NCBI RefSeq assembly: GCF_009663395.1
Contig: NZ_QKNW01000001.1
Location: forward strand, 1,178,001 to 1,242,000
From: Halosegnis longus
GTDB lineage: Archaea; Halobacteriota; Halobacteria; Halobacteriales; Haloarculaceae
Direction of reading: 5' to 3'
DNA: 64,000 nt
Position numbers and translations under genes: made by a program. Positions 25,758 through 29,833 of this stretch are shown in pieces (position 1 is the stretch's first letter; each line of letters opens with the position of its first letter). The notes under the pieces were generated by a model. That model was not told the DNA's origin, did no database searches, and was given only the letters and a program-made list of their open reading frames with translations.

Positions 25758-26534
25758 TTACAGCGGCTGGTGTGGCACGATTTCCGGTCCCTCGCGTACG
25801 GTTGCCTCGACGCCGAACACGTCCGCGAGCAGCTGCTCCGTGACGACCTCCGCCGGCGGTCCCCAGTCGTACGGCACCCCGTCGCGCAGCGCGATGAGGT
25901 TGTCCGCGTAGCGGGCCGCCTGCGCGATGTCGTGGAGGACGATACCGACGGTGACGCCGCGCTCGTCGTTGAGCGCGCGGACGGCGTCGAGCACGCCGAG
26001 CTGGTGGCGCAAATCGAGGAACGTGGTCGGCTCATCGAGCAGTAACACGTCCGGCTCCTGTGCGAGCGTCATGGCGATGCGAGCCAACTGTCGTTGACCG
26101 CCCGAGAGGTTGCCGACGCCGTCGTCGGCGAACTCGTCGGTGCCGGTGAGGTTGAGCGCCTCGTCGACGGCCGCGTGGTCGGTCTCCGAGAGGGGTTCGA
26201 GGAAGCCACGGTACGGGTGGCGGCCGTGTTGGACGAGTTCACGCACCGACAGCGACCCCGGCAGGTCGCCGTCCTGTGAGAGGAGCGCGAGCCGGCGCGC
26301 CAGCGGCTTCTTCTCCATCCCGTACACGTCGTCGGTACCGAGTCGCACGTCGCCGGCCCACGGTTCGAGTTGCCCCGACAGCGCCTTCAGCAGCGTCGAC
26401 TTCCCGGAGCCGTTCGGCCCGACGAGCGCCGTAATCTCGCCGTCCGGGAGGATGACGTTCTCACACTCGACGATGGGGTCGTCCGTCGTCGGGTAGCCGA
26501 CAGCGAGGTCGTCGCCGGTGAGCGCCGGACTCAT
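25758..26534 (-). CDS. ABC importer ATPase (iron-siderophore/cobalamin type)
   Basis: This 258-residue ATPase of the FepC/BtuD class has Walker A GPNGSGKST (39-47), signature LSGGQ (143-147) and Walker B VLLLDEPTTFLD. It energises the permease whose gene overlaps its own by 4 nt. The Q-loop is ALLSQDGDLPG. Its substrate is probably a ferric siderophore or another metal complex, judged from the permease family and the metal-type operators in the control regions; cobalamin cannot be excluded. Confidence 0.9.
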   Translation of the reverse strand: MSPALTGDDLAVGYPTTDDPIVECENVILPDGEITALVGPNGSGKSTLLKALSGQLEPWAGDVRLGTDDVYGMEKKPLARRLALLSQDGDLPGSLSVRELVQHGRHPYRGFLEPLSETDHAAVDEALNLTGTDEFADDGVGNLSGGQRQLARIAMTLAQEPDVLLLDEPTTFLDLRHQLGVLDAVRALNDERGVTVGIVLHDIAQAARYADNLIALRDGVPYDWGPPAEVVTEQLLADVFGVEATVREGPEIVPHQPL

Positions 26535-27670
26535 AGTTCACCCAACTGTTGGCGGCGGCGCATCAGATACAGGAAGTACGGCCCGCCGATGATGCCGGTG
26601 ACGACGCCGACGGGAAGCTGTGTCGGCGACCCGGTGACGACGGGCAGGAACAGCCGCGCGCCGGTGTCGGCGACGACGAGCAGCGCCGGCCCGGCGAACG
26701 CACAGCCGACGAGCAGCCGCTTGTGGTCGCTGCCGACGACGGTTCGGACGACGTGGGGGACGACCAGCCCGACGAAGCTGACGACGCCCGCCACGGCGAC
26801 CGCGGCCGACGCCGCGACGATACCGATGACCGAGAGGGCAAACCGCATCCGCTCGACGCGCATCCCGAGCGCGCTCGCCGTCGACTCACCGAGCAGGAGC
26901 ACGTTCAGCTGGCGGGCACCCAACACCGTCCCCGGGATGACGACGAGGAGGACGAACGGGAGGATGATGCGAAACTGCGCCCAGTCGGCTCCCGTCAGCG
27001 AGCCGGTCGTCCACGAGATGGCCTGCTGGACCGTCCCGAGGTCGGTCGCGAAGAAGTACAGCGCGGTCTGCAGCGAGTTCAAAACGGTGCCGACGATGAC
27101 GCCCGCGAGGACGAGCCGGACGGGCGAGGTGCCGCCCTGCCACGCAATCGCGTAGACGAGCAGGAAGGCGGCGGTTCCGCCGACGGCGGCCGTCAGCGGG
27201 AGCAGAAATCCGAAGGAGGGGATGAGGACCAGCGTGACGAGGACGGCGAAGCCGGCCCCCGAGGAGACGCCCAGGATGAACGGGCTCGCGAGCTCGTTGC
27301 GCGTGATGGCCTGGAAGATGGTCCCTGAAATCGACAGCGACAGCCCGACGAGCGCCGCGGTGAACACCCGCGGCAGCCGGATGTTCCAGACGATGTTTGT
27401 CGCGGTCGCGAGGTCATACTCCGTTGAGAGGCCGAGCGCCGCCGTCGCGCGCTCACCGAGGAAGAAGGTCGCAAGCACGTTCGGCTGGGTCCACACCGCC
27501 GGGTCGAACACCGACAGCCACGCCTGCCGGAGCGTCATCTCGTAGCTCCCGTAGCTCACCTGTATCAGCCCCGCGAGCACGGCGATCCCGAGTGCGGCCA
27601 CGCAAAACGACACCAGCGTCGTGTCGAACCAGTCCCAGCGGCCGACCGCCGTCTCAGCGCGTTCGGCCAT
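26531..27670 (-). CDS. FecCD/BtuC-family ABC permease
   Basis: This 379-residue membrane protein has about nine to ten hydrophobic segments and the FecCD strings NIRLPRVFTAALVGLSLSIS and ELASPFILGVSSGAGFAV, followed by SFVGLVVPHVVRTVVGSDHK, the ATPase-coupling loop. It is longer than most (about 330-350) because of an extended first periplasmic loop. The gene starts 20 nt downstream of a perfect TTAGG-N4-CCTAA palindrome. Confidence 0.92.
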   Translation of the reverse strand: MAERAETAVGRWDWFDTTLVSFCVAALGIAVLAGLIQVSYGSYEMTLRQAWLSVFDPAVWTQPNVLATFFLGERATAALGLSTEYDLATATNIVWNIRLPRVFTAALVGLSLSISGTIFQAITRNELASPFILGVSSGAGFAVLVTLVLIPSFGFLLPLTAAVGGTAAFLLVYAIAWQGGTSPVRLVLAGVIVGTVLNSLQTALYFFATDLGTVQQAISWTTGSLTGADWAQFRIILPFVLLVVIPGTVLGARQLNVLLLGESTASALGMRVERMRFALSVIGIVAASAAVAVAGVVSFVGLVVPHVVRTVVGSDHKRLLVGCAFAGPALLVVADTGARLFLPVVTGSPTQLPVGVVTGIIGGPYFLYLMRRRQQLGEL

Positions 27671-27690: not shown

Positions 27691-27704
27691 TTAGGTTTCC
27701 CTAA
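27691..27704. promoter_or_regulatory. Candidate metal-regulator operator (permease promoter), perfect palindrome
   Basis: TTAGG-TTTC-CCTAA is a perfect 5-4-5 inverted repeat, 20 nt before the permease start. The half-site TTAGG is the core of known DtxR/IdeR iron boxes, and two near copies precede the receptor gene of the same transport system. Function as a DtxR/SirR-type operator is inference. Confidence 0.6.
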
Positions 27705-27726
27705 GACAACAAAAGTCGCGCGATTC

Positions 27727-28881
27727 TCAGATATCGCCGGCGACGATGTCCGCGACGCGCTCGCGGTCGTACAGCGACTCGCTCACGCCGTACAGCTCCG
27801 ACGCCGTCCGCTCGGTCACGACGAAGTTCGTGATGGGACCCTGATACAGCGGGCCGGCCCGGTACACGTCGCCGTTCTGGACGGCGGTGAGGTCGCTCGC
27901 CACCTCGTGGTCTTGCATGAACGAGACGACGGTGTCCTCGAACTGTGCGGCGGACTTGGCCTCCTGGCCGCGCACCAGCAGCATCTCCGGGTCCACGTCG
28001 AGCAGCGTCTCGTAGTCGATTGCGCCGCGGCTGCTGTGGAAATCCTTCACGTCGGAGGCGGCGAGCGCATCCTGCACGTTCAGGTCACGCAGGTGTTTGA
28101 AGCTCGTCCCCTCGCTTTGCACGTACGGGTAGAAGGTGTCCGGCTGGTCGCCGCTGCCCCAGACGACGGCCGCCGAGGGGGCCTCGCTCGCCGCGGGCAC
28201 GTGGGGGTCGAGGTTCGCCCGGAACTCCTCGTGGAGCGAGACGAACGCCTCGTAGCGCTCCCGTTGTTGGAACACCTGCGAGAGCTTCTCGAAGGCTCCG
28301 TACAGGTCATAATACTGGTAGGAGTCGTGCCAGCCGTAGCTCCGCGAGAAGATGCTGTTCCCGAAGAACGGGCCGACGTTCGACTCGATTTCGTCGACGT
28401 CAGCCCGGTTCCAGCTCCCGAACCGGTTTTTGAGGAAGGTCGGGTCGATGAGGTGTACGTCGGCGTCGAACTGATAGAACAGCTCCTTCGAGACGCCGTC
28501 GTTCGACATGCTCGTCATGTCGTCTTTGTCGACGGAAAGCCCGTCAATCTCGTCGTAGTACTGGGTGTGATACCGGCTCGTGAGCCAGACGCCCTTCGGC
28601 GGCTCCTGGCCGAGCGCGATACCCATGTCGGCCCAACTGCCGTTGTTGGCGACCCACGTCTCCGGCACCGACTCGAACTCCACCTCGCCGACGGGGGCCA
28701 TCTCCACCGAGTAGGGAGTGTCACTCGGCGTCGCGGTCGCGGTCGACGTGGCGGTCGGCTCCGTCCCGCCGCCGTCGGTCGGTGTCTCCGTCTCCGTGCC
28801 ACTGTTACAGCCAGCCAACAGCGCAGCGCTCGCCGCCGTTCCGGTCAGGAATGTGCGTCGTCGCATACCCACGCCTCTCAT
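27727..28881 (-). CDS. Tat-exported lipoprotein receptor of the iron/cobalamin ABC importer
   Basis: This 384-residue periplasmic-binding-like protein has a twin-arginine leader (RRRTFLTG near residues 7-14), lipobox LLAGC with Cys25, then a Thr/Glu-rich linker (about 28-55) typical of haloarchaeal lipoproteins. The mature part has the class III binding fold with DVDEIESNVGPF and LLDVDPEMLLVRG, as in FepB/BtuF proteins. Start codons at 28881 and 28866 are both possible; both precede the Tat motif. It is separated from the permease by a 56-nt control region. Confidence 0.88.
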   Translation of the reverse strand: MRGVGMRRRTFLTGTAASAALLAGCNSGTETETPTDGGGTEPTATSTATATPSDTPYSVEMAPVGEVEFESVPETWVANNGSWADMGIALGQEPPKGVWLTSRYHTQYYDEIDGLSVDKDDMTSMSNDGVSKELFYQFDADVHLIDPTFLKNRFGSWNRADVDEIESNVGPFFGNSIFSRSYGWHDSYQYYDLYGAFEKLSQVFQQRERYEAFVSLHEEFRANLDPHVPAASEAPSAAVVWGSGDQPDTFYPYVQSEGTSFKHLRDLNVQDALAASDVKDFHSSRGAIDYETLLDVDPEMLLVRGQEAKSAAQFEDTVVSFMQDHEVASDLTAVQNGDVYRAGPLYQGPITNFVVTERTASELYGVSESLYDRERVADIVAGDI

Positions 28882-28895
28882 TTTGGCCCACCTAA
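28882..28895. promoter_or_regulatory. Candidate metal-regulator operator (receptor promoter, proximal)
   Basis: TTTGG-CCCA-CCTAA matches the TTAGG-N4-CCTAA palindrome with one mismatch. It lies at the start of the receptor gene, 13 nt from the distal site, with an AT-rich candidate TATA (aattttt) between them. Confidence 0.5.
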
Positions 28896-28902
28896 ACCCG
28901 TC

Positions 28903-28910
28903 AATTTTTC
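28903..28910 (-). promoter_or_regulatory. Candidate TATA box of the receptor gene
   Basis: On the minus strand gaaaaatt lies about 22-29 nt before the ATG at 28881. It falls between two operator-like palindromes, so a bound repressor would block TBP. Inferred from position only. Confidence 0.4.
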
Positions 28911-28921
28911 GGCCGGCCTAA
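28908..28921. promoter_or_regulatory. Candidate metal-regulator operator (receptor promoter, distal)
   Basis: TTCGG-CCGG-CCTAA matches the same 5-4-5 palindrome with one mismatch. Its centre is 26 nt from that of the proximal site. Confidence 0.5.
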
Positions 28922-28969: not shown

Positions 28970-29833
28970 ATGGTGATGAGCGCCGCGGAGGCGATGGAGG
29001 AGTACGGACCGAGTGAGATAACGACGGACCGGATACTGACGGTCGATGACCCGGCCTACACCGACGAGAACGTCGCGCTCGTCACGGGGGCCGCGAGCGG
29101 CATCGGACGCGCTATCGCGCTGTGTCTCGCCGGCAACGGGCTGACGGTCGCCGGCGTCGACGTGGACACGGACGGACTCGACGAGGTGACGGCCCGCGCC
29201 GAGACGCTCGGACTCCCCGGCGGTATCGAGTCGGTCGAGGCCGACCTCACCGAGGAGTCAGACATCGAGCAGGCGGTCGAACGGGCCGCCGACCTCGGTG
29301 ACCTCCGGTATCTCGCCAACGTCGCGGGACTCCAGACGATCGCCCCCATCGCCGAGTTCCCGACCGAGAAGTACGACCTGATGCACGACGTGATGCAGCG
29401 TGCGCCGCTCCTGTTGAGCAAGGCCGCCTGGCCCCATCTCGAGGAGTCGGGCGGCGTCATCGGCAACATGTGTTCGGTCCACGGTCACATCGTCACGGAG
29501 GACAAGGTGGCGTACAACACCGTGAAGTTCGCGCTCCGGGGGCTGACCCAATCGATCGCCGCCGAGGGCGACGGCGACATCCGGGGCTTTTCGGTCTCCA
29601 CGGGGTTCGTGAAGACGCCCCTCGTCGCCAAACAGCTCCCCGACTCCGCCGAGTCGCGCGGCCTCTCGGTCCCCGAGACGGTCGAACAGGTCATCCTCGG
29701 GGCGAGCAAGGTCAAGCGGATGATGGAGCCGTACGAGGTCGGGAATCTGTTCGTCCACGGCTTCTCCCACCACGCCAGCCACCTCAACGGCGACGACATG
29801 ACCCACGACGGCGGGATGTCGACGACCTACTGA
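28970..29833 (+). CDS. Short-chain dehydrogenase/reductase, hydroxybutyrate dehydrogenase-like
   Basis: This 287-residue NAD(P)-dependent oxidoreductase has the nucleotide loop TGAASGIG at 39-46, a Ser in CSVHGHIV, and the active-site pair Tyr182-x3-Lys186 (YNTVK). The SVHGH string and the closing HDGGM resemble D-beta-hydroxybutyrate dehydrogenases, but substrate is not settled. The first 33 residues before the Rossmann strand are an unusual extension. The ATG at 28970 fits the TATA box; Met at 28976 is also possible. The stop lies 1 nt before the convergent ligase gene. Confidence 0.85.
   Translation: MVMSAAEAMEEYGPSEITTDRILTVDDPAYTDENVALVTGAASGIGRAIALCLAGNGLTVAGVDVDTDGLDEVTARAETLGLPGGIESVEADLTEESDIEQAVERAADLGDLRYLANVAGLQTIAPIAEFPTEKYDLMHDVMQRAPLLLSKAAWPHLEESGGVIGNMCSVHGHIVTEDKVAYNTVKFALRGLTQSIAAEGDGDIRGFSVSTGFVKTPLVAKQLPDSAESRGLSVPETVEQVILGASKVKRMMEPYEVGNLFVHGFSHHASHLNGDDMTHDGGMSTTY

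Follow-up and report, generated by a model that had tools for sequence, protein, structure and literature searches.

Our data suggest, with a probability of roughly 85%, that three 14-bp boxes in the control regions of a FecCD-type importer of Halosegnis longus act as operators for a DtxR-family repressor that responds to iron and is most likely the TroR ortholog. The window, i.e. the whole 64-kb stretch of DNA that was analysed, carries the importer genes, the boxes and a divergent short-chain dehydrogenase (SDR) gene at the following positions:

25758-26534, minus strand: ABC ATPase of the importer (Pfam PF00005, E 1e-30)

26531-27670, minus strand: FecCD-type permease (Pfam PF01032, E 2e-81)

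27691-27704, no strand: putative iron box 1, TTAGGTTTCCCTAA, with perfect palindrome arms

27727-28866, minus strand: lipoprotein receptor, Peripla_BP_2, FhuD/FecB-like (Pfam PF01497, E 6e-16)

28882-28895, no strand: putative iron box 2, proximal, in the receptor promoter, TTTGGCCCACCTAA (minus strand TTAGGTGGGCCAAA)

28891-28896, minus strand: TTTAGG within box 2, the likely TATA-like element of the receptor promoter, at -25 to -30 relative to ATG 28866

28908-28921, no strand: putative iron box 3, distal, in the receptor promoter, TTCGGCCGGCCTAA

28937-28944, plus strand: candidate TATA of the SDR gene, AATTTATG, -33 to -26 from ATG 28970, from sequence reading

28970-29833, plus strand: SDR, 3-hydroxybutyrate dehydrogenase-like, divergent from the receptor

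All three sites that a sequence-only reading of this DNA had proposed are present, identical in letters and coordinates. Box 1 is an exact TTAGGNNNNCCTAA palindrome with a 4-bp spacer, placed 21-34 bp before the start codon of the permease gene (27670). Boxes 2 and 3 carry one mismatch each, at the tolerated position 3, and lie at -16 to -29 and at -42 to -55 relative to the receptor ATG 28866, box 3 being at the same time 49-62 bp upstream of the divergent SDR start. The boxes sit on core promoters of iron-uptake genes. The receptor carries a Tat signal, MRRRTFL, and has an alternative in-frame start at 28881; ATG 28866 is the more likely start, because the MRRR ATG is conserved in 3/4 orthologs and position 28881 is not ATG in the sister genome G002, the upstream ATG being out of frame or absent in the other orthologs. 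Boxes 2 and 3 are kept in five related genomes (G002, G004, G005, G013 and G032), always with 26-bp spacing, and box 1 is kept before FecCD in G004, G005 and G032 but not in G013.

The sequence-only reading had recognised TTAGG as the half-site of DtxR/IdeR iron boxes, and the motif of the window indeed equals the redefined 14-bp single-dimer consensus of IdeR/DtxR, TTAGGNNNNCCTAA (PMC8464063). In that structural study one IdeR dimer binds half of the 19-bp box with a KD of 78 nM; consensus and geometry are identical here, and one dimer per site, observed there, is predicted for H. longus. Since the boxes match a known DtxR/IdeR binding site, we take them as the iron switch of the transporter. 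Actinobacterial operators usually have the 19-bp form, in which two dimer sites, 5 bp apart, overlap, whereas the boxes found here are of the single-dimer type and occur singly or paired at 26 or 34-37 bp. The classical 19-bp form TTAGGTTAGSCTAACCTAA was rejected as the class of these sites, because the boxes do not overlap: a second overlapping box is absent in the window, where the pair is 26 bp apart.

A DtxR-type iron box before an iron importer is an already known kind of element, to which the present locus adds one more example, its geometry now being better described. For the fhu genes of Haloferax volcanii a DtxR-family (‘ferR’) signal was reported by Leyn and Rodionov 2015, as cited in PMC11349517, and in this regulon the signal stands before fhu receptor and permease genes, as here; by this likeness, taken from the citing paper, the H. 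longus locus would belong to it. Five FhuD paralogs of H. volcanii increase >4-fold in iron starvation (PMC11349517). Haloferax alexandrinus served as stand-in for the H. volcanii receptor loci, and its counterpart of HVO_A0557, which is among those paralogs, has three boxes in its promoter region, which is that of a divergent receptor pair adjoining an HVO_A0556-family gene.

Random palindromes, arising where an AT-rich gap interrupts the GC-rich genome, are an alternative that two counts favour: the window has 4 motif matches with ≤2 mismatches against 3.3 expected, which is weak as a count, and the genome (2.77 Mb) has 21 sites with ≤1 mismatch against 31 for the control motif, i.e. TTAGG-N4-CCTAA read backwards. 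The one-mismatch count was therefore dropped as a significance test; since this total is below control, the signal is not in the number of sites but in their arrangement. Exact sites number 6 in the genome against 2 for the reversed control, and 6 pairs lie within 50 bp of each other against 0.007 expected for 20 sites, whereas no such pair was found among the 31 control sites of the same genome. Moreover, the mismatch falls at half-site position 3 in 13/15 one-mismatch sites (26% by composition, P ∼2e-6). A sample of 126 high-quality haloarchaeal genomes contains 1517 copies of the exact motif but 143 of the control, and each genome has at least one exact copy (126/126). The 30 receptor loci examined, one from the window and 29 from relatives (122 kb in total), contain 45 exact sites with N4 and zero with any other spacer between 0 and 15; for about 210 kb surrounding two DtxR-family genes the spacer scan likewise returned zero. 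The earlier judgement that such an arrangement is unlikely by chance is thus upheld by pairing, the strict N4 spacer, conservation in 126 genomes, position-3 mismatches and the target genes, and the comparative data already refute a chance origin, whose probability we regard as negligible. One match, at C1:1132714, was not counted among the promoter boxes, since no protein genes are predicted in the stretch around it, which is probably rRNA.

In this genome, boxes precede three receptor paralogs (in the window, at C1:345.7k and at C1:384.8k), the FecCD permease of the window and several genes of an Fbp-like ABC cluster with an SBP_bac_6-type binding protein and a BPD permease (C1:2270-2278k), at the head of which two exact boxes stand 27 bp apart. 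Also boxed are a NifU-domain gene, a DtxR-family gene (C1:1924916), a ZIP transporter (single box), a glycosyltransferase, a DUF7552-DUF7260 pair, the divergent Dph2/YlbF pair and a GMC oxidoreductase. This putative regulon appears to be dominated by iron-uptake and iron-related genes, with some targets lacking an evident iron role. The refuting condition named by the sequence-only reading, a motif common at unrelated promoters, was checked genome-wide and did not refute it, and the proposal that iron is the transported metal gains support from this set of genes and from the match of the boxes to the DtxR/IdeR site. Iron is hence the likely cargo of the importer, and the genome gains a candidate iron regulon.

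For several of the single boxes, among them those of Dph2/YlbF and the glycosyltransferase, look-alike sites with unchanged or nearly unchanged letters turn up in genomes of the same genus (compared by letters). The one-mismatch box at C1:2264636-2264649, between the divergent genes for Dph2 (diphthamide synthesis) and YlbF, recurs letter for letter in G002 and G004, while G003 and G005 have similar sites. The GMC-type oxidoreductase gene (L027:5760-7361, plus strand), without known iron role, is preceded by an exact box, 19 bp from its predicted start, and a bacteriorhodopsin-family gene (L033:9826-10656, minus strand) stands at the end of the boxed iron-type ABC cluster.

The 24 box pairs of the receptor loci fall into two classes, 19 with a spacing of 34-37 bp (class I) and 5 with 26 bp (class II), to which the receptor promoter of the window belongs. 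The proximal box is 4-6 bp from the start codon in class I and about 15 bp in class II, beginning at about -19 or -29, i.e. one helical turn apart; given the different spacings, the distal box therefore stays at about -55 from the start codon in both classes. This shows a conserved haloarchaeal promoter design with a fixed distal box and a proximal box that shifts by one helical turn. Named plasmids of Halobacterium hubeiense and Haloferax larsenii have such pairs immediately in front of receptor genes, with spacings of 36 and 34 bp. In class I, a BRE-like and a TATA-like sequence lie between the two boxes. When class II is aligned with class I, TTTAGG of the proximal box falls at -30, which is the TATA position of a leaderless haloarchaeal transcript, and the receptor TATA thus probably lies inside box 2. 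The AT-rich tract between the receptor boxes, previously put forward as a TATA candidate, is not conserved.

With box 2 on the likely TATA, occlusion is the likely mechanism of repression; we infer binding, occlusion, the iron response in H. longus and the assignment of the regulator, whereas the sites with their geometry and conservation, the target genes and the regulator gene itself are observed. One repressor dimer would bind each 14-bp box. When iron is sufficient, dimers would cover the likely TATA by occupying box 2 and the adjoining upstream BRE side by occupying box 3, and would block assembly of TBP, TFB and RNA polymerase at the receptor gene, while a dimer on box 1 would likewise block the permease-ATPase unit. 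When iron falls, the repressor would leave the boxes and the importer would be made.

The control region with boxes 2 and 3 is common to the receptor and the SDR gene at 28970. These boxes might primarily control the SDR gene with the receptor as a passenger. The SDR-receptor divergent synteny is kept in G004, G005, G013 and G032, and its SDR side persists in G002 after loss of the transporter. In this sister genome (L193:5697-5920) an internal deletion took nearly the whole importer, including the permease, and left a remnant of receptor codons 1-35 fused to ATPase codons 217-258 (the last 42), with both receptor boxes retained and an SDR 97% identical. As the boxes outlast the transporter, the SDR gene may be a further target of theirs; alternatively, the deletion may be recent. 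The latter would remove the argument from G002; moreover, receptor paralogs here and elsewhere carry the same box pairs at a constant distance from their start codons, the permease is the only gene served by box 1, and the box positions suit the receptor core promoter rather than the candidate SDR TATA, which is free of overlap with the boxes. We therefore consider primary control of the SDR gene unlikely and keep the importer genes as the main targets. The SDR and receptor genes share the boxed intergenic region in five genomes, and an iron-linked role of the SDR is possible.

Three DtxR-type genes of the genome were compared: TF1 (C1:1936229), which encodes an FeoA-containing SirR/MntR-type protein, TF2 (C1:2131003) and TF3 (C1:1924916, Idr-like). 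Cognate DtxR-family regulator genes are thus present, and one of them is the TroR ortholog:

C1:2131003-2131446 of the H. longus genome (L036:5004-5450), plus strand: TF2, TroR ortholog (PF01325, E 1e-15; PF02742, E 3e-13)

TF2 has the winged HTH and the Fe_dep_repr_C dimerisation domain of the DtxR family. In two Haloferax genomes the start of the TF2 ortholog is about 540 bp from a primer published as flanking HVO_0863 (PMC6801745), which identifies TF2 as the TroR ortholog. A title quoted in PMC11834397 (Martinez Pastor 2024) names TroR as the primary regulator of iron in H. volcanii, and our comparison with that network draws on this title. The H. longus protein is 69.6% identical to TroR (HVO_0863), and the suf-linked gene order is the same.

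A TroR-like gene and the box are both present in 126/126 genomes, hence co-occurrence at class level is uninformative. Two genomes, G035 and G051, have no exact box and lack TF2 (TroR-like) and TF3 (Idr-like) while keeping TF1; this co-occurrence carries little weight, as nearly all genomes have the TroR-like gene and the exceptions come from a single clade of small incomplete genomes. In G012, at 81% completeness, a TroR-like gene was not detected, yet 5 sites are present. TF2 and TF3 both have Glu at the position of the DNA-contacting Gln43 and share a recognition helix, from which that of TF1 differs. On balance these comparisons favour TroR, perhaps together with the TF3 protein, and TroR specifically is probably the regulator of these boxes, although its Glu in place of Gln43 and its lack of canonical metal ligands count against it. 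TF3 itself has a nearby box in 10/15 loci, with pairs further upstream in L117, L119, L121 and L122 and no close box in G002, and its product possibly shares the boxes with TroR.

The main reader could instead be the TF1 protein, in which case the signal could be manganese. TF1 is universal (59/59), has every canonical metal ligand intact in 30/30 orthologs, and SirR was proposed for iron genes in H. mediterranei (PMC11218638). However, TF1 is also found in both box-free genomes, and its recognition helix is unlike that of TroR and the Idr-like protein. Manganese is further opposed by boxes on siderophore-type receptors, the Fbp-like ABC cluster and NifU, and among the boxed genes no Mn-specific transporter was seen, only one ZIP gene with a single box. 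Manganese is thus an unlikely signal and TF1 a quite improbable main reader. From the earlier suggestion of an iron- or manganese-responsive DtxR/SirR regulator, the DtxR family stands, while TroR is a better candidate than SirR.

The canonical metal ligands of the family (M10/D8, H79, E83, H98, C102, E105 and H106) are largely gone from TroR: in 28 orthologs only E83 (28/28) and E105 (27/28) are kept, and the others are replaced in essentially all 28. TF3 also lacks the canonical ligands. The tie of TroR to the DtxR family hence rests on homology, not on a canonical metal site, and how iron is sensed becomes a testable question. Four Cys are invariant in the 28 orthologs, one beside the old metal site and the others in a CPDC...C tail. 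It is conceivable, though we hold it rather doubtful, that TroR senses iron by a chemistry unlike that of classical DtxR, perhaps with an Fe-S cluster or Fe(Cys)4 bound to it; if so, TroR would report Fe-S status. With a mean pLDDT of 66, and <50 in the cysteine tail, the AlphaFold model of this protein is too weak to judge cysteine geometry. The gene for a conserved 160-aa protein precedes troR in 32/32 loci examined, and sufD precedes that gene in most loci with enough upstream sequence, the order in H. longus being sufCBD.
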